Below, piece after piece: positions 10,158 to 57,500 of a DNA stretch of 64,000 bases. Source of the stretch: Planctomycetota bacterium (lineage in GTDB: Bacteria; Planctomycetota; JAMOSO01); the NCBI GenBank assembly GCA_027063065.1, contig JAMOSO010000001.1:13220-77219 (forward strand), given 5' to 3'. The notes below the pieces were generated by a model. That model was not told the origin of the DNA and did no database searches. It worked only from the letters and a program-made list of their open reading frames with translations. The position numbers were made by a program, and so were the translations under genes. Each line of letters starts with the position of its first letter. The stretch's first letter is position 1.

Positions 10158-11162
<1,005 letters not shown>

Positions 11163-11210
11163 TTATTTTAAACAGAAAACATAAAAAATACTTAATTTTT
11201 TGAACTCAAT

Positions 11211-11238
11211 ACTTTATAAATACCATTAAAAATGTCAA
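11211..11238 (-). promoter_or_regulatory. Sigma-70-type promoter of gap
   Basis: On the minus strand a perfect TTGACA (11238-11233) is followed after 16 bases by TAAAGT (11216-11211, 4 of 6 matches to TATAAT). It is about 60 bases upstream of the gap start codon, and no competing box was seen. Confidence 0.6.
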
Positions 11239-11284
11239 GATATTTCACCTGAATGTTTTATTTCAAACTAATTTAAAGGCCAAT

Positions 11285-14734: not shown

Positions 14735-16357
14735 TTACAAAATAGGCACCCAATAACATTGGATATTATTAGGCATAAATTGCAATAGTTTATTTAATGC
14801 TTCTGCATTGGATATTTTAACAGCATATAAATTTGCCGATATAAATTTATCTTGCATCATTATTGGTGATTGAATAAACACATTTGCCATATTCCATACA
14901 GATCCAATTTGATGATGAACCTTCTCGACAGAATTAGATATCAAAATATCATTTATAAAAAACAATAAAGGAAAAGACACCTCCTCAGCACATCTAAAAC
15001 GCATTAAAGACAAACTAATAAAATTATAATTATCTATAAAATTAGATGTCACTGGCACAGACTTATCCACCGTAAAAACAATCTCATTGCCTGTACTAAA
15101 TTGAAATAATGATATCGAGGCTACACTACCATGTGCATTCACTAAAGTAATAGGCAACGATTTTTTAAAATTAACCATCAATGCTTTTGTATTATTTATT
15201 ATCAAATCATTATGACCATAAAAATTAGCACATTTACCATCGTGAACAGGTATTAAATGATAGCTTAATTGCTTTTGGTTTTTTTGATTAATTATATTAA
15301 TAATTTTCTTATAGTCCGCTTGTAATGCCCACTTATGCTCTAATACAGAAACATTAATAAATTGATACAGCAAAATAACTAAAGATAAAGCCTCAAACAC
15401 ATATTTTATCTTCCCATCTAAATTAAAAATAAAAATATATAATAAATACACAGTAATTGGCACAATATATATGTATACTCTTGCGGGTCCAAAATGCGAC
15501 ATAAGTGCCACAACTATAGCAACCCATAATACTCCCACAAAATAAAATGCAACAAATCTTGTTTTAACACTTATCGCACTCATTAAGACCAAAACAACTA
15601 TAGGTAAACCTATAACAGATTTAAGTATTAATATTCCATTAGTTATCAATAAAGAAAAATCCGTTACAACACTTTGTTGCTGAGCTAAAAATAAAATATG
15701 TCGATAGAAATACACTACCACTAAAATTATAAAACACGGCAAAATAACATCTAACCATTTACCTTGTTTTTGTTTAACTTCCGCTACATATATATAGCCC
15801 AAAATTGGCACAATAAACAAAAATGCAACCAATAAGGTTAACTGTGATAGTAAGGTTAATAAGCACAACACCACTGTTCTTTTATTACAGGCTTGATATG
15901 TTAATAATAGTAAAAACAAACAGACCTCTAAAACAACATAAGAATAAGGCCTAGCCATATGAGAATAATGCACTAATATTGGTGATGTAATACAAAATAA
16001 AGCCACACATATAGAATAAACATTATGCTTTGTTCTGCGCCAAAAGGCATAATACATAACCAAAGGGGTAACACAACCAGCTAAAAAATTAGGAAATCTA
16101 TACCAAAACTCTTGATGGACACCTTGCATAAACCACAAACGATTAAACGCATGAGTTAAAGGTGGATAATTAGAAAAAATATCCGAAAATAATATTCCAA
16201 AAAAAGATGAATCTGGATAGTCTTGCAATGGCCAGATTTCATCATACTCTAAGCCTCTAAACATTCCAGAAATACGCACCATAAATGATATGCACAATAA
16301 CAATAAATATATAACAAATGTATGCTTTGTGAACAGTGTTTGAAGTTTAGCTAACAT
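14735..16357 (-). CDS. GT39/ArnT-like membrane glycosyltransferase
   Basis: Polytopic membrane protein of 540 residues with about ten hydrophobic segments in the first 350 and a soluble C-terminal region. GLEYDEIWPLQDYP soon after the first membrane segment carries the acidic motif of lipid-phosphate-sugar transferases (PMT_2/ArnT). YSHMARPYSYVVLE matches the conserved second-loop region. Such enzymes move a sugar from a polyprenyl carrier onto an extracytoplasmic acceptor; the acceptor here is unknown. The ATG at 16357 overlaps the TGA of the upstream Wzy-like gene by one base (TGATG), so the two are coupled. Confidence 0.8.
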   Translation of the reverse strand: MLAKLQTLFTKHTFVIYLLLLCISFMVRISGMFRGLEYDEIWPLQDYPDSSFFGILFSDIFSNYPPLTHAFNRLWFMQGVHQEFWYRFPNFLAGCVTPLVMYYAFWRRTKHNVYSICVALFCITSPILVHYSHMARPYSYVVLEVCLFLLLLTYQACNKRTVVLCLLTLLSQLTLLVAFLFIVPILGYIYVAEVKQKQGKWLDVILPCFIILVVVYFYRHILFLAQQQSVVTDFSLLITNGILILKSVIGLPIVVLVLMSAISVKTRFVAFYFVGVLWVAIVVALMSHFGPARVYIYIVPITVYLLYIFIFNLDGKIKYVFEALSLVILLYQFINVSVLEHKWALQADYKKIINIINQKNQKQLSYHLIPVHDGKCANFYGHNDLIINNTKALMVNFKKSLPITLVNAHGSVASISLFQFSTGNEIVFTVDKSVPVTSNFIDNYNFISLSLMRFRCAEEVSFPLLFFINDILISNSVEKVHHQIGSVWNMANVFIQSPIMMQDKFISANLYAVKISNAEALNKLLQFMPNNIQCYWVPIL

Positions 16358-20061: not shown

Positions 20062-20087
20062 TTTAAAATCACTATTTGGAGAGGTCT

Positions 20088-21632
20088 ATGTTTGCAACTT
20101 TATGCGCTATTACATTACATGGGGTAGATGCTATCGAGGTGGCTGTTGAGCTTGACGCGAGCAATGGGATGCCTTCATTTCAAATTGGCGGATTAGGTGA
20201 TTCTGCAATCAAAGAAAGCAAACAAAGGGTGATTTCTGCTATTAAAAATTCTGGATATAAAATACCACCCAGACGCATTACAGTAAATTTAGCACCAGCA
20301 GATTTAAAAAAAGAAGGCACTTGCTATGATTTGGCCATTGCTATTGGATTATTAATAGCGACTAATCAGATTGAAATATTAATAAAAGGCAAATTTTTGA
20401 TATTAGGCGAATTGTCATTAGACGGTAAATTACGTCCAGTATCTGGTATTTTACCCGCAGCTATTATGGCTAAAAAACAACAATATGATGGATTAATTCT
20501 GCCTAAAGAAAATCAATCTGAAGCAAGCGTTGTAGAAGATATCAAAATAATTGGAGTCAATAATTTGCTAGAAGCAATTAAATTTTTATCTAATGAATTT
20601 ATACCCAACACAACAGAAATACATAATATTATACCAAACAACGAAAACTACCCTGTAGATTTTAGTGATATTAAAGGACAAGAAGGTGTTAAACGTGCAT
20701 TAACAATTGCAGCAGCTGGAGGGCATAATTTAATTTGTATAGGCCCTCCTGGATCAGGCAAAACAATGTCTGCTAGAGCCATACCATCTATTTTGCCAAG
20801 CTTAAGTAAACCAGAAATGCTAGAAACCAGTAAAATTTATTCTGTGGCTGGATTACTACCCACTAATTATCCATTAATACATACTAGGCCATTTAGAGCC
20901 CCACATCACTCAATATCAGAAGCCGGCCTAGTCGGTGGCGGTAGCAATCCTATGCCAGGAGAAGTAAGTTTGTCACATAATGGCGTATTATTTTTAGATG
21001 AACTAACCGAATTTAATCTGCGTACATTAGAATCATTACGCCAACCGCTAGAAGATAAAAAAATTACCATATCAAGAGCTAAACGGACTGTAACATTTCC
21101 ATCAAATACTATGCTATTAGCCGCCATGAATCCATGTCCTTGTGGTTTTTACGGTTCTAATTCCAATAGCTGTACCTGTACAAGCAATCAAATACAAAAA
21201 TATCTGAGTAAAGTATCAGGGCCTTTGCTTGATCGTATTGATATGCACATAGAAGCCCCTCCTGTAAACAAAACTGATTTATTAAGCAATACTAAATCAG
21301 AAACATCGGCATCAATAAAAATTAAAGTAGAAAATGCCAGAAATGTGCAATTAAAACGATTTCAGAACCAATCTAATATGCAAATACATAGTTGTTATTC
21401 TAATTCGGATATGAATCCTCGTCAAATTAAACAATTTTGCTTATTAAATACACAAAATACTAAATTAATGGAAAAAATGTTTGATAATTTAAACTTTTCG
21501 GCGCGTTCATACAATAAAGTCTTAAAAATAGCACGTACTATAGCCGATTTAGACGATTCAAAAAATATAGAACAAAATCATTTATTAGAAGCCATTCAAT
21601 ATAGAACTCTAGACAGAAAATATTGGGGTTAA
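20088..21632 (+). CDS. comM: YifB/ComM-type AAA+ ATPase
   Basis: Magnesium-chelatase-like AAA+ protein of 514 residues. ComM is a hexameric branch-migration helicase that helps integrate incoming DNA during transformation. Visible are the N-terminal VDAIEVAVELDASNGMPSF, the Lon-like region DLAIAIGLLIAT, Walker A GPPGSGKT, Walker B VLFLDELTEF, the sensor AAMNPCPCGF with the Cys-rich CTCTSNQIQKY, and the C-terminal FSARSYNKVLKIARTIADL. The ATG at 20088 follows GGAGAGG; the earlier in-frame TTG overlaps that site. With comEC at 4.8 kb this points to competence. It is the last gene before the skew flip. Confidence 0.94.
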   Translation: MFATLCAITLHGVDAIEVAVELDASNGMPSFQIGGLGDSAIKESKQRVISAIKNSGYKIPPRRITVNLAPADLKKEGTCYDLAIAIGLLIATNQIEILIKGKFLILGELSLDGKLRPVSGILPAAIMAKKQQYDGLILPKENQSEASVVEDIKIIGVNNLLEAIKFLSNEFIPNTTEIHNIIPNNENYPVDFSDIKGQEGVKRALTIAAAGGHNLICIGPPGSGKTMSARAIPSILPSLSKPEMLETSKIYSVAGLLPTNYPLIHTRPFRAPHHSISEAGLVGGGSNPMPGEVSLSHNGVLFLDELTEFNLRTLESLRQPLEDKKITISRAKRTVTFPSNTMLLAAMNPCPCGFYGSNSNSCTCTSNQIQKYLSKVSGPLLDRIDMHIEAPPVNKTDLLSNTKSETSASIKIKVENARNVQLKRFQNQSNMQIHSCYSNSDMNPRQIKQFCLLNTQNTKLMEKMFDNLNFSARSYNKVLKIARTIADLDDSKNIEQNHLLEAIQYRTLDRKYWG

Positions 21633-22020
21633 CAATATTCAATCTAAAAAGTCTTTAATTAGTACGAAATAATCCCATTATAGCCTAAAAAAATAAATTT
21701 ATAGTTATACACCGCCTATCAATCCAAATTATCGGCAAAAATACTTGACCTAAGCGATTTATCTGATTTAATCATCAGACGAGATTGATTGACTGCCAAA
21801 ATTGTATTGTAAAAAAACCGATTTAAACGATGGGTTTTACCGATGATTAAGATTTAATTACAAGATGTTTATGATTGAGTTTTACTTTGTAATAATACTT
21901 AAATTCAATAATGGCAATAGTTTATCAAAAATCAATGAAATATATCAGCGTTCCTGTTATAGTAATAGTATTAGTAGTTAAAAGAGGTAATAGTAACTAT
22001 TCTTTTTTTATAAAATAAAT
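21633..22020. other. Candidate replication origin (skew-flip intergenic region)
   Basis: This 388-base AT-rich gap separates comM from the replication initiator gene. By hand count the plus strand has 24 C and 12 G in 21661-21780 but 36 G and 21 C in 21781-22020. The change matches the C-rich left part and G-rich right part of the window. Inside are an inverted repeat TCTGAT/ATCAGA (21762-21779) at the flip, CGAT repeats (21755, 21818, 21827, 21840) and a TAG/TAA trinucleotide run (21960-21977 and 21988-21996). One near-match to a DnaA box, TTATACACC, lies at about 21703-21711. Origin function is inferred. Confidence 0.6.
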
Positions 22021-23859
22021 ATGAATAAAAAACAATTAACATTTATGGATAATATTAATACTAATGGCCGTAAAGAGCCATTAACTATTATTAAAGCTAA
22101 TAATTTAGAAAATAGCACTATAACTTTTGATGAAATTTTACTAGGTCAAACTTCGATTGTAGCTCCGGAAGGCGCTGTACTTGAAAGACGTGTCAATCCT
22201 GATACATCACAAGAATATTTAGTTAAACGATTTAACCATGTAGTTGGAACACATAATGGTGATTTAAGATCAGTTGAAATAGAAATAGAAACACTACCCA
22301 GTCAGGGCTTAACAGACTATTTTGATGATAAAGTATTATTAACTCTACATTCTTTAGCTTTAGAAAAAGACTCTTATGAGTATTACACAAATATTTCAGA
22401 AATTTGCGCCGCTAGAGATTGGCCTTTAAATGGTGAATATATTGCTAAAGTACGCAAAAGCTTAGAAAAACTAGAAGGTACTTCTATTGCCAGTGATCAA
22501 TTTGTTGATCCTGATACTAACGAATCAATTAAACAAAGAATAAATTTATTATCTCGTTATGTGCGTTTTAAAGACGAACAGCGTTCAACATCAATCAAAA
22601 AAGACGGTATTTTATATGATGATGAAATTAAATTTAAAAAAGATTTTTTAATTGAGATAAATCAATTTTTTTTTAAGAGTTTGCAAAAACAAAAAATAAA
22701 ACTTGATATTAAGGTTTTAAATTCATTTAGAAATAAAACAGTTGAAAAATTATATCGCTTTTTAAATACAATGTTTCAATTAAAATCAGAAATTGAAATA
22801 AATCTAACAGATTTATGTGAAACTTTAGGCATTACTGTGCCTAAGTATATTTCTAATATAAAACGTAATATTTATGTACGTTATATCAAAGAAATAGAAA
22901 AAAATAATATAATCAAACCTTTTGATATTAAAACTAATTATTATAAACATAATAAAATTTGGCGTGTGAAATTTGAACGTGGTGAATTTTACGAGTCTCT
23001 TGAAGATAGATGGGCAATGAAACCAGCTTTATTTAATATTTTTAATTATTTGCACGCCGAATTAAAATTTAAAAAACATGAAGCTCATACTTTGATGGGT
23101 AAATATGCCAATGAGCTTATTCAAGAAAATATCAATTATTTGCGTTTATCATTAGAAATTACTCCAAATGTGATTAGATATCCAAAAGCTTGGATGAAAA
23201 AATCATTAGAAAACAATTGGGATCATAGTTTAAATTTACAAATCTTAAGAGAGTTAAAACACAGTAAAACACCATTAACACAATATCAGCAATCTTGGGA
23301 AAAACGTGATTTTAATGAAGAAGAAAAACAAGCATTTGAACGTTGTACTATTAAATTTAAAATACCAGAAAACATAGTTATTCCTTGGATTAAAACCCAT
23401 GCTAATTTTGATTATATCAAACAATTAGATAAGGTTTTTGATTTATTAAAACCTGAAGAACAAAAATATGATTATTTAGCTACTATGATTAGACATCGAG
23501 ACTCCAGAGTTTGGCGTATAACAATACCTGGCAGTGAGCAAGAACAAGTTGCCAATCGTATACAAAAACAGAAATATCAATCTTTGTTTGCTAATGAAAT
23601 TGTAATTGAACCAGATGACATAGAAACATCAGATAATATCACACCTGTCGCCCCTCCTATGCCCAATATATTAAATTTAATGGACGCCTTAAAACAACAT
23701 TTAGGAGAAGAATATAATAAATTGTTTAATGAAACATATATGGCTGCGGAACCTGTTTTAGTTTTAGGTGGCATTGATAGCCCAGAGGCAATTAGAGATG
23801 CAATTTTAATTCAGATGCAGAAAACATATTTGCCAAATTTTATTACGCAAAATGATTAA
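22021..23859 (+). CDS. Plasmid-type replication initiator (RPA/RepA-like)
   Basis: A 612-residue protein resembling the replication initiator protein A (RPA) group of plasmid Rep proteins, which bind origin repeats through winged helices. Residues 95-190 carry the first winged-helix pattern (DKVLLTLHSLALE, EICAARDWPL, KVRKSLEKLEGTSIAS). Residues 215-320 hold the second (KTVEKLYRFLNTMFQLK, DLCETLGI, then IWRVKFERG). A later NVIRYPKAWMKKSLENNW resembles a motif common in plasmid Rep proteins. The C-terminal 200 residues are not recognised. It lacks a Shine-Dalgarno sequence, suggesting low translation, and follows the candidate origin directly. Its stop overlaps the next gene by eight bases. 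Family call is from pattern only. Confidence 0.72.
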   Translation: MNKKQLTFMDNINTNGRKEPLTIIKANNLENSTITFDEILLGQTSIVAPEGAVLERRVNPDTSQEYLVKRFNHVVGTHNGDLRSVEIEIETLPSQGLTDYFDDKVLLTLHSLALEKDSYEYYTNISEICAARDWPLNGEYIAKVRKSLEKLEGTSIASDQFVDPDTNESIKQRINLLSRYVRFKDEQRSTSIKKDGILYDDEIKFKKDFLIEINQFFFKSLQKQKIKLDIKVLNSFRNKTVEKLYRFLNTMFQLKSEIEINLTDLCETLGITVPKYISNIKRNIYVRYIKEIEKNNIIKPFDIKTNYYKHNKIWRVKFERGEFYESLEDRWAMKPALFNIFNYLHAELKFKKHEAHTLMGKYANELIQENINYLRLSLEITPNVIRYPKAWMKKSLENNWDHSLNLQILRELKHSKTPLTQYQQSWEKRDFNEEEKQAFERCTIKFKIPENIVIPWIKTHANFDYIKQLDKVFDLLKPEEQKYDYLATMIRHRDSRVWRITIPGSEQEQVANRIQKQKYQSLFANEIVIEPDDIETSDNITPVAPPMPNILNLMDALKQHLGEEYNKLFNETYMAAEPVLVLGGIDSPEAIRDAILIQMQKTYLPNFITQND

Positions 23860-24979
23860 ACGGGTTGGTATTTTTAGCTCAACAAGAGCTGATTATAGTT
23901 ATTTGAAACCTGTTGCCAAAGCTTTGCAACAATTAAAAATAAAAGTGGTTTTTTTTATTACTGGATTACATTTACGTCAAGATCGAGGCAATAGTATTAA
24001 ATATATCCAATCAGATGGTTTTGTTTTTTATACTATTACCAATCAGTTGCATACTGATGAGGCAATTAATCAAGCTGGTATAAATGGCGATATATTAAAA
24101 CAATTGCCGATGTTATTGTCAGAAAAGAAAATACAATTTCTTTTATTATTAGGTGATAGAAGCGAAATATTAACCGCGGCTTTATCGGCTATGCACATTA
24201 ATGTTGCCATTGGACATATCCATGGTGGTGATTTGTCTTATGGAGGCGGTATTGATGATAGTATTCGTCATGCCGTTACAAAGTTAGCTCATGTGCATTT
24301 TCCTGCTAGTAACGATAGTGCTAGACGTTTATTGAGGTTGCAAGAAGCACCATGGAGGATTATAAAAGCAGGTGAAACAAGTTTAGAAAATATTAAGCAA
24401 TCTGATAATACATTTTTACAACGGTTTAATTTACCTCAACCCTATGCCGTATTATTGCAACACGGCGAGGCATTACAGGCTGATAAGTCTGTAGAGCAGT
24501 TTAAAAGTGTATATACTGCCCTGTGTAGTTTTGATTTACATAAGGTTGTGATTTTGCCTAATGATGATCCTGGTGCAAAAAAAATGATTGCATTTATAAA
24601 AAGTCAATCCAAGACATCTGCAACAACCGTTTTTAACACCCTTGCCACCGCCGATTTTTTTGATTTACTTAAAAATAGTAAATTTTTAATTGGCAATAGT
24701 TCTTCGGCTATAATTGAAGCACCCTATTTGGGCGTGCCAGCCATTAATTTAGGTATTCGCCAACAAGGGCGTAAAACTTATGTGTCTACATTACACGGTG
24801 ATTTTAACACAGCAAATATAGTTGAGCTTATTGCCGAGGTTTTGACAAATAGGCACAAGCTTAAAACTCGTGCTGTTGCCAAACGTTTATCTAATCGACC
24901 ATTGGCAAGTAAAATTATTGCTCAACATATTAAAAGTTTACGATTAGATAAATCGTTTTTTCAAAAAGTTATGTCTTAA
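23852..24979 (+). CDS. neuC: UDP-N-acetylglucosamine 2-epimerase, hydrolysing (NeuC-like)
   Basis: Epimerase_2-family enzyme of 375 residues that turns a UDP-HexNAc sugar into ManNAc-type sugar plus UDP, the first step towards nonulosonic acids. Visible are SSTRADYSYLKPV, LLGDRSEILTAALSAM, HIHGGDLSYGGGIDDSIRHA, the UDP-binding GNSSSAIIEAPYLGVPAINLG and RQQGR. The N-terminal STRADY pattern and the split active site fit the NeuC/NnaA group rather than WecB. No neuA or neuB is nearby. It starts within the last eight bases of the initiator gene, an odd pairing of sugar metabolism with replication. Its end overlaps the convergent amidotransferase gene by 11 bases. Confidence 0.88.
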   Translation: MIKRVGIFSSTRADYSYLKPVAKALQQLKIKVVFFITGLHLRQDRGNSIKYIQSDGFVFYTITNQLHTDEAINQAGINGDILKQLPMLLSEKKIQFLLLLGDRSEILTAALSAMHINVAIGHIHGGDLSYGGGIDDSIRHAVTKLAHVHFPASNDSARRLLRLQEAPWRIIKAGETSLENIKQSDNTFLQRFNLPQPYAVLLQHGEALQADKSVEQFKSVYTALCSFDLHKVVILPNDDPGAKKMIAFIKSQSKTSATTVFNTLATADFFDLLKNSKFLIGNSSSAIIEAPYLGVPAINLGIRQQGRKTYVSTLHGDFNTANIVELIAEVLTNRHKLKTRAVAKRLSNRPLASKIIAQHIKSLRLDKSFFQKVMS

Positions 24980-26821: not shown

Positions 26822-26879
26822 TAGTCCAACGCGTTGGACAGTGGGTTTCACGTGAAACTTTGTCCAACGCGTTGGACTA
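26822..26879. other. Composite parS: canonical site flanked by a 19-bp inverted repeat
   Basis: GTTTCACGTGAAAC (26845-26858) is the exact 14-base core of the conserved chromosomal parS bound by ParB. On each side lies a 16-base perfect palindrome, GTCCAACGCGTTGGAC, at 26824-26839 and 26862-26877. With its outer bases each forms an arm of a 19-base inverted repeat (TAGTCCAACGCGTTGGACA at 26822-26840, reverse complement at 26861-26879). The site lies just upstream of parA. The parS identity is established knowledge; the meaning of the outer palindromes is not known to me. Confidence 0.93.
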
Positions 26880-26919
26880 AAGTTTGCATGTTGCCGAGCT
26901 TGAGCTTATAATCTTAAAT

Positions 26920-27738
26920 ATGTATTCTAAAAAAATAACGTTTATTAATCAAAAAGGTGGTGTAGGTAAAACTACATTATGTGTTAATGTTGCCGCTGAT
27001 TTAGCTATGCGTAATTATAAGGTTTTATTGGTTGATACTGATCCGCAAGCTAATGCTACTACTGTTGTGCATGAAGCTCCAGAAGGGGCGCCAACTATTG
27101 CAGATGTGATGTTGGGTGATGTGAGTGCTGCCGATGCGGTGGTAACTGCACGCAAAAACTTAGATTTATTACCTTCTGGTGAAAATATGTGGAATTATTC
27201 ATTTCAGGTAGTGCAACAAAATTTAGGTGATTTGCTAGGCCGTTTTCGTGAGGTTATTGATTCGGTTGATAAAGATTATGATTTTATTATTTTTGATACA
27301 AATCCATATCCTGCTACTTTATGTATATTGGCTTTGGCTTTTTCTCAGCATAGTATTACGCCAATGTTTCCAGAGCCTTTTGCATGGGATGGGTATTCGA
27401 CTTTATCGGGTTTAATTAATGATATTCGCAAGGATTTTAATCCAGACATACAACCTTTGGGTATCGTGGTAAATAACTTTAATGGATCAAAAAATATACA
27501 TAAGGAAGTTTGCATGGCATTGTTTGAATCTGTTCCAGATGAAGTTTTTAAATCGGTCATTAGAACAAATAGTAACTTATGTAAGATGGGAAATGAATTA
27601 AAAACTATTTTCGAAATAGAGTCTCCCAGCGGTAAAGGAAATAAGGATTTTTCGGCTTTGACGGATGAAATGTTAGATAAACTGTGTATGCCGATACGTA
27701 AAATGGATGATGATATAATTAAAGCCCTGCAAAATTAG
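26920..27738 (+). CDS. parA: Chromosome-partitioning ATPase ParA
   Basis: MinD/ParA-type ATPase that moves ParB-parS complexes apart. The deviant Walker A motif is KGGVGKTT (residues 12-19) with the signature Lys, and the Walker A' stretch is [10 protein letters not shown]. The Walker B strand is [17 protein letters not shown], where the usual DTPP is DTNP. The ATG at 26920 gives 272 residues and starts directly before the ATPase fold, as in chromosomal ParA/Soj; plasmid ParA of the P1 type would carry an N-terminal DNA-binding extension. It lies 41 bases after the composite parS and nine bases before parB. Confidence 0.95.
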
Positions 27739-27746
27739 GAGGTTTA

Positions 27747-28625
27747 GTGGCTGATTTTTCTGAAATAACCAAACAATTTAAAGAGAGTCAATCAGGCAAA
27801 AACAAACCAGCTCAGGGGCGTATTGCCGCTAAAGTGGCAAAGTTTAAACAGGATAAAATTGCTTCTGAATTTAAATTGGTTGAACTTAGTTCTATTGCAC
27901 CCGATCCTAATCAGCCTAGGCGTATTAAGGATACCAAGAGTCGTGATTTAAAGTCCTTAGCTAAAACAATTAAAGAAAAAGGTGTTTTAGAACCTTTGCT
28001 TGTGCGTGAAACAGCAACAGGGTTTTTGTTAGTAGCTGGTGAAAGGCGTTATTGGGCTAGCCATATAGCTAAATTACGTGCTGTGCCTGTTAGGGTTGTG
28101 CATCTTAATAGCCAAGAAATAGCCGAGGTACAATTAATTGAAAATATTCAGCGTAAGGATTTAAATCCATTAGAGCGTGCGAGAGGGTTAAAAAATATTG
28201 CCGATTCTGGAGGTAGCACAAAAGATATTTATAAACGAGTAGCAATTTCTCGCTCTTTATATTATGCGTTACTTTCTTTATTAAATTTACCAGAAGAAAT
28301 ACAGGATAAAATAGATCAAAGCTATGCTAACGAAAATGAGGGTATACCCCTTAGAGAATTAATTGAATTGGCAAAGATTAAAGACATTAATAAATTAAAA
28401 TCAGCTTTTGAAGATTTAGATAGTGGCACTAGTTTAATAGAAGAACGACAAAAAAATAATCCTAAAGCATCAACTATTGCTAAAAATAAAGTTAAAGATT
28501 TTCAAAGAGTCTCTAATAAACAAGGGGTTGAAATATTATTGCGTATTCCAGCAGAGATGAAACCAAATGAGCTAGATTTAGAAGATATTGATGCGTTGTG
28601 GCAAGAGGTGTTAAATAAATTATGA
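27747..28625 (+). CDS. parB: Partition protein ParB/Spo0J
   Basis: DNA-binding CTPase of the ParB family, 292 residues. The ParB N-terminal domain includes LSSIAPDPNQPRR, the GERR motif (98-101) that binds CTP and the ENIQRKDLNPLE box (132-143). A helix-turn-helix follows (STKDIYKRVAISRSLYYALL), which should recognise parS. It starts with GTG after an AGGAGG ribosome-binding site. The C-terminal part is basic and ends in an acidic helix, likely for dimerisation. Its stop overlaps the yejA-like start by four bases, which is unusual for par operons and suggests read-through into the transporter genes. Confidence 0.95.
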   Translation: MADFSEITKQFKESQSGKNKPAQGRIAAKVAKFKQDKIASEFKLVELSSIAPDPNQPRRIKDTKSRDLKSLAKTIKEKGVLEPLLVRETATGFLLVAGERRYWASHIAKLRAVPVRVVHLNSQEIAEVQLIENIQRKDLNPLERARGLKNIADSGGSTKDIYKRVAISRSLYYALLSLLNLPEEIQDKIDQSYANENEGIPLRELIELAKIKDINKLKSAFEDLDSGTSLIEERQKNNPKASTIAKNKVKDFQRVSNKQGVEILLRIPAEMKPNELDLEDIDALWQEVLNKL

Positions 28626-34733: not shown

Positions 34734-35092
34734 CTGTATGCTGTTACAATATGATTGGTAAAGCCAAAAAAATATACAAAGTGTGGAGAGATAATTGGTA
34801 ACAATAATTGTTGCAAGTCACAGACTATGCATAAAATGAAGAATAAGTAATAAAAATCTATAATCTATTATGTCAAAAGCTATATTTGTTATTTGCATAA
34901 CAGATATAGCTTTTATTATGTACGGATAATATGTATTGGGTTTAATGGGTGATAATAGATTTAAGTATATTTGCCTGTATTATTGTTTATTATATATTAT
35001 TCAGCTATTTAATTTGTTTTGATTAGATAGTTTTAGATCATATTTTCAAAAATGATGGATTAAGTAATGCTTAATAGTGGCAAGGAATAGCA
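34734..35092. other. 359-base intergenic region with terminator, otherwise featureless
   Basis: Between the yej operon and the polysaccharide cluster. Apart from the hairpin at 34875-34914 I see no gene or RNA. It is clearly G-rich over C on the plus strand (53 G to 21 C in 34741-34860 and 34921-35090), supporting leading-strand status. No ribosome-binding site or promoter of note except weak AT-rich boxes before 35093. Confidence 0.6.
34875..34920 (+). terminator. Terminator of the yejABEF transcript
   Basis: AAAAGCTATATTTGTTAT (34875-34892) and ATAACAGATATAGCTTTT (34897-34914) form an 18-base stem with one G-U and a four-base loop, ending in TTTTATTA. Long AT-rich stems with A-run and T-run edges work in both directions, so it also shields the yej genes from the other side. 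Confidence 0.88.
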
Positions 35093-56492: not shown

Positions 56493-57500
56493 TTAGTTAG
56501 AGTTTAATTTGTCTAATGCAGAAAAGAATTCTGGCAAACCTTTTCTGGTTACAGAGGATATAACTACGCATTTACGATTTGTTTCTTGCGTGATACGGTT
56601 GTAACAACTTTGTGCAAATTGGGCATCAACACATTCTGATTTAGTTAAAACTATTAGCTGTGGTTTGTTGGCAAGTGTAGCGCTAAAATTAGCCAATTCA
56701 TTGTTGATGATATGATATTGTTTAATTATTTCTTCAATATCGTATGGTGTTAAATCTATCAGATGAGCTAAAACCTTAGTGCGTTCAATATGCTTTAAAA
56801 AGCCTGTACCCATACCACGTCCAGTTGATGCACCTTCAATTAGTCCAGGTATATCGGCAAGCAATATGGTGTGTCCAGGGGCTAATTCTGCCATACCAAG
56901 ATGGGGGTGTAGTGTTGTAAATGGGTAGGCGGCAGTTTTAGGATTGGCGTTTGTTACTGTAGACAATAAAGTTGATTTGCCTGCATTTGGAAACCCAACT
57001 AAACCGACATCAGCAATTAGTTTGACCTCTAAATGTATTCGTTTGGTAGCTCCATGAGTACCTTTGGTGGTTTCTGTAGGTACTTGGTTGGTAGAAGATA
57101 CAAAATGTAGATTGCCTAATCCGCCTTTACCACCTTTGGCGGCAATACACTGCATTCCATCTTTGTCTAAATCCATCCAAATGCGTTTAGTTTCTGCATC
57201 ACGGACGATTGTACCAATAGGTACTTCTACATATAGTTTTTTTCCACTTGCGCCTTGTTTTCGATGTGGACCACCAATTTGTGCATTTTCAGCTCTGTAT
57301 ACGTGTTGTTTGGTAATTTCAAATAGAGAACGGATATTCTCACGGGCAACTATTATGACGCTTCCGCCATCACCACCGTTGCCACCGTCAGGCCCGCCTT
57401 TGGCACGATTTTTAGCTTGTGCAAAGCTTAAGCGACCATTGCCACCAGCTCCTCCTATTGCAGTAAATTCAACCTCATCAACAAAAGAAGTGGTGGCCAT
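56493..57500 (-). CDS. obgE: GTPase Obg (ribosome assembly)
   Basis: Essential GTPase involved in 50S maturation. The N-terminal glycine-rich Obg fold (DEVEFTAIGGAGGNGRLSF, GGPDGGNGGDGGSVI, AAKGGKGGLGN) occupies residues 1-158, and the G domain follows with GFPNAGKST, DIPGLIEGAS and TKSE. Length 335 means the extra C-terminal OCT domain is missing, as in many Gram-negatives. It follows rpmA by 20 bases in the standard rplU-rpmA-obgE order. Confidence 0.97.
   Translation of the reverse strand: MATTSFVDEVEFTAIGGAGGNGRLSFAQAKNRAKGGPDGGNGGDGGSVIIVARENIRSLFEITKQHVYRAENAQIGGPHRKQGASGKKLYVEVPIGTIVRDAETKRIWMDLDKDGMQCIAAKGGKGGLGNLHFVSSTNQVPTETTKGTHGATKRIHLEVKLIADVGLVGFPNAGKSTLLSTVTNANPKTAAYPFTTLHPHLGMAELAPGHTILLADIPGLIEGASTGRGMGTGFLKHIERTKVLAHLIDLTPYDIEEIIKQYHIINNELANFSATLANKPQLIVLTKSECVDAQFAQSCYNRITQETNRKCVVISSVTRKGLPEFFSALDKLNSN

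Follow-up and report, generated by a model that had tools for sequence, protein, structure and literature searches.

A plasmid-type Rep gene beside one of four skew minima in a planctomycete genome that is probably divided among several replicons

The 64,000-nucleotide stretch of planctomycete DNA analysed here (the window, C1:13220-77219, C1 being the contig on which it lies) holds a replication origin, as judged by its strand composition, in an AT-rich noncoding gap next to a gene for a plasmid-type initiator. As read from a draft assembly, the genome probably consists of separate molecules: a main chromosome, with its origin near dnaN and a canonical parABS locus, and three Rep-driven chromids—former plasmids that hold essential genes—one of which includes the window. 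The initial annotation had taken the gap for a chromosomal origin with a plasmid-type Rep. The origin behaviour, the RPA-like adjacent gene, and the nearby ribosomal genes were all borne out, but the gap is one of four minima, and its identification as the chromosomal origin was not supported. Likewise, of a chromosome started by a Rep or a plasmid captured at oriC, the two readings offered at that time, neither is favoured by the evidence, which points instead to a separate Rep/Par replicon, that is, a chromid with essential genes. Chromids are known mainly from proteobacteria; a cell usually has one or two of them, and most genes for translation stay on the main chromosome. Here, the core genes of a bacterium with 2.1 Mb of DNA are divided among four origins, of which three are marked by paralogous plasmid initiators.

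The readable part of the draft genome comprises 2.13 Mb in 71 contigs, from a genome bin with a completeness of 90.5% and a contamination of 0.2%; 72 kb of C50 and the whole of C16, whose sequence reads N, lie outside it. Proper overlaps between contig ends yield partial chains (C57-rC9-C1-rC18, rC12-C7, and rC35-C27-C63-C26, with C48 as a single contig), and no circle was closed. The join between C27 and C63 is backed by gene order (rpmF, followed by plsX-fabD-acpP-fabF). A join between C3 and C48 was dropped, the end overlap being an inverted 127-base match. Related repeats of 60–360 bp are found at many contig ends (C13, C21, C29, C33, C57, C5, and C26); this family is perhaps integron-like, or of another kind, and perhaps the cause of the assembly breaks. 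The features of the window are collected in Table 1.

Table 1. Features of the window around the putative origin, with the evidence for each (window coordinates).
Feature	Coordinates	Strand	Evidence
ComM/YifB-like Mg-chelatase ATPase, left neighbour, outside the origin	20076..21632	+	annotated in this analysis
Origin region: AT-rich noncoding gap with skew minimum at 21776	21633..22020	.	GC 25%; raw and gene-strand-corrected skew
Candidate iterons GAT-N6-GAT at 21756, 21820, 21842, and 21864, the last three 22 bp apart	21756..21885	+	4 matches within 120 noncoding bp vs 0.05 expected
rep, predicted initiator of 612 residues, RPA-like in its N-terminal half (about residues 36-324), C-terminal half unassigned	22021..23859	+	PF10134 E 0.0025, below cut-off; paralogue-profile hhalign
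UDP-GlcNAc 2-epimerase (NeuC-like), right neighbour, overlaps the end of rep	23852..24979	+	PF02350 E 2.8e-53
parS-like palindrome GGTTTCACGTGAAACT	26844..26859	.	contains the 14-base core GTTTCACGTGAAAC
parA	26884..27738	+	AAA_31 E 3.7e-42; ParA-type partition ATPase models below their cut-offs
parB	27747..28625	+	ParB_N E 3.3e-21, over cut-off; TIGR00180 over cut-off
obgE, core gene, same replicon	56493..57500	-	tblastn with E. coli ObgE, E 1.1e-60
rpmA (L27), single copy in readable genome	57520..57762	-	tblastn E 1.4e-24; no second copy
rplU (L21), single copy in readable genome	57791..58108	-	tblastn E 5.2e-14; no second copy

The base counts from which a switch from C-rich to G-rich DNA had been proposed proved exact for the gap itself (24 C/12 G in 21661-21780, followed by 21 C/36 G in 21781-22020) and were reproduced for 909-1044 plus 11154-11284 (36 C/18 G). 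For 34741-35090, where 53 G/21 C had been given for parts of the stretch, a recount over its full length gives 60 G/27 C, which is G-rich both ways. The switch in the noncoding gap is real, since the global minimum of the cumulative GC skew of C1 falls at C1:34995, that is, at position 21776 of the window. At fourfold sites corrected for gene direction, this minimum does not move, and its prominence of 627 compares with values of at most 37 for the background dips. Two further choices of sites shift the C1 minimum to C1:37979 and to C1:38187, beyond the 3' end of the Rep gene by about 1 kb, and the position of the switch is thus known to about 3 kb.

Throughout the readable genome, composition depends strongly on gene direction—the sense strand is G-rich overall (+0.10) and C-rich at fourfold sites (-0.25)—and to an extent large enough to displace apparent skew minima by tens of kb. 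The coding-strand effect was therefore estimated within 12 kb blocks, by regression on gene strand, and subtracted. Corrected in this way, the fourfold and noncoding sites of the readable genome reveal four minima, at C7:248 (prominence 873), C1:34995 (627), C63:1988 (244), and C48:16335 (135), with a prominence of at most 37 for every other dip. When all sites are used, the same four chains come out on top (3170, 1934, 903, and 420, with at most 82 for the remaining dips), and two of the minima relocate, to C1:38187 and C27:39503. There are also four strong maxima, on C24, C54/C8, C39/C19, and C17/C41 (prominences, in descending order, of 473, 170, 157, and 122), to which the use of all sites adds a weaker fifth one on C11.

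It is highly improbable that these patterns are an artefact, either of gene orientation or of a bin in which several organisms are mixed. The coding-strand effects are strong, the draft is in 71 contigs, and the apparent fourth minimum differed by up to 33 kb among analyses. However, once the coding-strand effect is removed, the three minima with a Rep gene remain where they were (to the exact base on C7 and C48, and to within 3.2 kb on C1) and the background dips vanish, and the scaffolds, besides the low contamination of the bin, are alike in GC and complementary in their single-copy genes. As for the fourth minimum, a position inside purL (C27:19204, from raw skew) was dropped and one obtained from uncorrected fourfold sites (C63:1988) was set aside, each as a gene-orientation effect in the analysis concerned; after the gene-strand regression it lies between C27:39.5k and C63:2.0k. 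This minimum, near dnaN and a canonical parABS locus, is a better candidate than the window for the ancestral chromosome origin.

The open reading frame of the window rep is intact, and a search of its own genome retrieved three more full-length Rep paralogues, on C48 (minus strand, start at 16127), C26 (400-2232), and C7 (start at 564), all four being mutual paralogues with 26–30% identity in alignment. Three of them begin just downstream of a minimum, at distances of 316 bp on C7, 245 bp on C1 (the window), and 208 bp on C48; a simple calculation gives a probability of about 1e-8 that, of four genes placed at random, three would lie so near one of four points. The C26 Rep is separated by some 22 kb or more from the nearest minimum, the one on the dnaN side, and a skew fit without gene-strand correction rejects its position by 77 log units. 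It may represent a plasmid origin that became integrated, or the main origin displaced by rearrangement. A periodicity of 21 bases is found upstream of this gene.

Against PF10134 (RPA; curated cut-off of 27 bits), the window Rep scores 17.8 bits and is consequently classed, on its sequence, as RPA-like rather than as a member of the family. The C26 Rep scores 13.1 bits, the C7 Rep shows no match to this model, and the C48 Rep reaches 26.7 bits in one scan and 28.7 bits, above the cut-off, in another. When a profile of the four Reps was compared with a profile of plasmid RPA proteins, hhalign returned a probability of 98.9% with an E-value of 1.8e-17 over 268 columns, all in the N-terminal half, which identifies the Reps, as far as profiles can tell, as remote relatives of the RPA initiators of planctomycete plasmids. 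Those compared were the PF10134 initiators of pPL62-2 (Planctomyces sp. SH-PL62), pEP7_04 (Isosphaeraceae EP7), and pISOP01 (Isosphaera pallida), with which the Reps share a homologous N-terminal half and the placement of rep beside a noncoding gap. In pPL62-2, moreover, replication initiator protein A, ParA, and ParB follow each other in the same order as in the window. Despite these similarities, identity amounts to 21–25% over a third to half of the protein, and the Reps described here are about 120–150 residues longer; the planctomycete plasmids measure 34–86 kb, whereas the contiguous scaffolds of this genome exceed 100 kb and bear ribosomal genes. Among 294 genomes of the phylum, none of them of the same class, there was no full-length relative of the Rep, and four gave weak partial matches; searches of solved structures and of phages gave no match. 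A predicted structure of the window Rep alone was discarded (pLDDT 33).

The window Rep is predicted to start replication at the adjoining gap, its placement on the skew minimum being indirect support. That it is instead a regulator of the RPA family, located beside the origin by chance, is the least credible of the alternatives weighed here: although the similarity to RPA is remote and restricted to the N-terminal half, three paralogues lie less than 320 bp from three separate minima, and one of them, on C7, has ten iterons upstream. These ten 22-base repeats (consensus near TAGGGAGATATTTAGAATAC) lie at C7:55-458, on both sides of the minimum, in two arrays of opposite orientation. The candidate iterons of the window are weaker than this array; their pattern reaches up to five matches inside genes elsewhere, and a general repeat scan of the window gap found no excess over shuffles. 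Each origin seems to hold a repeat of its own, which would fit the recognition of its own origin by each Rep.

Three ParA/ParB pairs are encoded in the genome, at the C35/C27 junction, in the window, and on C48. Those of the window, together with their parS-like site, lie 3–5 kb past the end of rep, and the pair of C48 lies 1.4–2.4 kb from the C48 minimum, also with a parS-like palindrome; in the readable genome, all five occurrences of the core GTTTCACGTGAAAC are at parA/parB loci. The locus at the C35/C27 junction, with three exact TGTTTCACGTGAAACA parS sites, resembles the chromosomal parABS (Soj/Spo0J) and, by its sequence, looks like an ordinary chromosomal system. Contrary to it, the loci of the window and C48 hold one site each, with the outer bases changed, and are placed by rep as in plasmids. 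The surroundings of the C7 origin contain no ParA/ParB pair, and the parS search there gave a two-mismatch site only (C12:5432).

Single-copy core genes, placed by tblastn with E. coli proteins, are present on every origin-bearing scaffold. The scaffold of the window holds rsmG, obgE, rpmA, rplU, yidC, accA, and thrS; C48 holds rpsB-tsf-pyrH-frr at 7–10 kb from the origin and tilS, trmD, ffh, and murA farther out; the C12/C7 scaffold holds mnmE and rpsG (on C12); and the fourth chain (C35/C27/C63/C26) holds dnaN (on C27) and map. The initial annotation had listed rpmH along with rplU and rpmA in the window; the latter two were recovered, next to obgE, while tblastn and pattern searches found no rpmH. 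None of 32 ribosomal proteins was found in a second place, so that the scaffolds are complementary parts of one genome. With regard to the criteria by which chromids are recognised, the composition is near that of the main chromosome (GC of 0.331 for C1, 0.341 for C48, and 0.335 for C7, the other contigs lying mostly at 0.33–0.36); plasmid-type replication and partition genes are present in the window (rep, parA, parB, and the parS-like site); and its replicon bears core genes that are chromosomal in other species (rplU, rpmA, obgE, yidC, rsmG, and thrS).

Skew alone cannot separate one molecule from several, and four minima with four maxima fit equally well a single chromosome with four origins, formed by the ancient integration of plasmids with RPA-type Reps whose origins are still active. 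The core genes, which are spread evenly across the four origin scaffolds rather than concentrated on one, and the single tyrosine recombinase found for dimer resolution also agree with this arrangement, which is nevertheless unlikely. Two of the Rep origins have intact parA/parB genes and a parS-like site nearby, which would be redundant or harmful on one molecule; since rep and par lie close together at these two origins, and the same layout is that of a free plasmid in a planctomycete, separate replicons are favoured.

Neither dnaA nor dnaN adjoins the window origin. The sole DnaA-like gene is found on C44 (C44:31903-33315, with pyrF after it), away from any minimum and in a region of monotone skew, and dnaN lies on C27, near a different minimum. 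The C44 protein keeps the Walker motifs and sensor II; compared with canonical relatives, however, its box VII arginine finger is changed from SRF to EFI, and GGRDHTTV/GGRDHSTV to GGKKYSAV. It passes TIGR00362 narrowly (348.7 bits, with a cut-off of 343.9). In a quick tree with long branches, which is to be taken as provisional, it is placed outside the canonical clade, to which E. coli belongs (SH-aLRT 99), and groups with the divergent second DnaA copies carried by many genomes of the phylum. In such genomes, a canonical DnaA is accompanied by a second DnaA-like protein whose DNA-binding and arginine-finger motifs are degenerate; a divergent DnaA on its own also occurs in several other genomes (G004, G035, G008, G031, G006, and G054). 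In the readable sequence, 36 exact TTATCCACA DnaA boxes were counted, against about 27 expected by a hand estimate, and they form no cluster at any minimum or elsewhere. Of the observations named beforehand as refuting a Rep-started origin in the window, other minima and a dnaA-like gene elsewhere were thus found, but a cluster of DnaA boxes was found nowhere. A canonical dnaA may lie in the missing tenth of the genome or in the 75 kb of N.

These data bear on two further readings. It is very unlikely that the origin in the window is a captured plasmid relic, dead or silent, beside the true chromosomal origin, with the skew generated by a DnaA origin at the same place. Skew is blind to which protein acts, and a dnaA-like gene just over the NCBI DnaA cut-off exists; but that gene is on another contig with monotone skew, its product has lost the arginine finger and the DHT/DHS motif kept by the canonical DnaA of the phylum, no box cluster occurs here or elsewhere in the readable sequence, and three independent Rep genes sit at three separate minima. 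Doubtful, though less far-fetched, is the possibility that no DnaA-oriC works in this bacterium and that all origins, including that of the main chromosome, are started by paralogous plasmid-type Reps, whether the four origins lie on four chromosomes or together on a single one. If true, paralogous plasmid initiators would have replaced the bacterial initiator. The lost DnaA motifs were considered as proof of such a takeover, an argument weakened by genomes of the phylum that show a divergent second or a lone divergent DnaA and no RPA-type match; because of the latter, this trait alone is no proof.

Under the preferred reading of a main chromosome with three chromids, the genome is divided, the gap would be where one of its replicons starts replication, and the adjacent gene would encode that replicon's own initiator. 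Iteron plasmids provide the model for initiator binding, melting, and helicase loading. By analogy with them, Rep would bind the repeats of the gap, melt the AT-rich DNA, and load the DnaB helicase, which is single in this genome. Forks departing both ways would produce the skew, and ParA and ParB, acting on the parS-like site, would segregate the replicon.

The closest parallel in organisation is chromosome 2 of Vibrio cholerae (ori2/RctB), which likewise has its own Rep at the origin, its own ParAB, and core genes, and whose repeats find a counterpart at the best-preserved origin, that of C7. Unlike that chromosome, no relationship to RctB is established for the Reps described here, and three such origins occur, in a planctomycete. 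According to a review, secondary chromosomes all have a plasmid-type origin, either with iterons or of the repABC type, and chromids with iterons are known only from beta- and gammaproteobacteria (PMC6090056). In the literature searched, the coverage of which was partial, no paper on planctomycete chromids was found. On the other hand, Synechocystis and Cyanobacterium aponinum replicate independently of DnaA, from several origins and with irregular skew (PMC7198777). The genome described here resembles these cyanobacteria in its several origins and in that no DnaA-oriC dependence is in evidence, but differs in its discrete origins, sharp V-shaped skew, and dedicated Reps. If the proposed organisation is true, this bacterium would be a case for studying the joint timing of several Rep-driven replicons, how ribosomal genes reach former plasmids, and whether DnaA is dispensable while sharp origins persist.

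Scans for dif sites with the proteobacterial and firmicute consensus sequences, and for words common to the skew maxima, found nothing. The whole readable genome gives one PF00589 match, a tyrosine recombinase on the C7 replicon (C7:24217-24699), and with only one such enzyme present the XerCD consensus may not apply; the dimer resolution of all replicons would then rest on this single recombinase. A relative assembled as a single contig of 6.8 Mb (G104:C1) has four RPA-type genes on its main contig.
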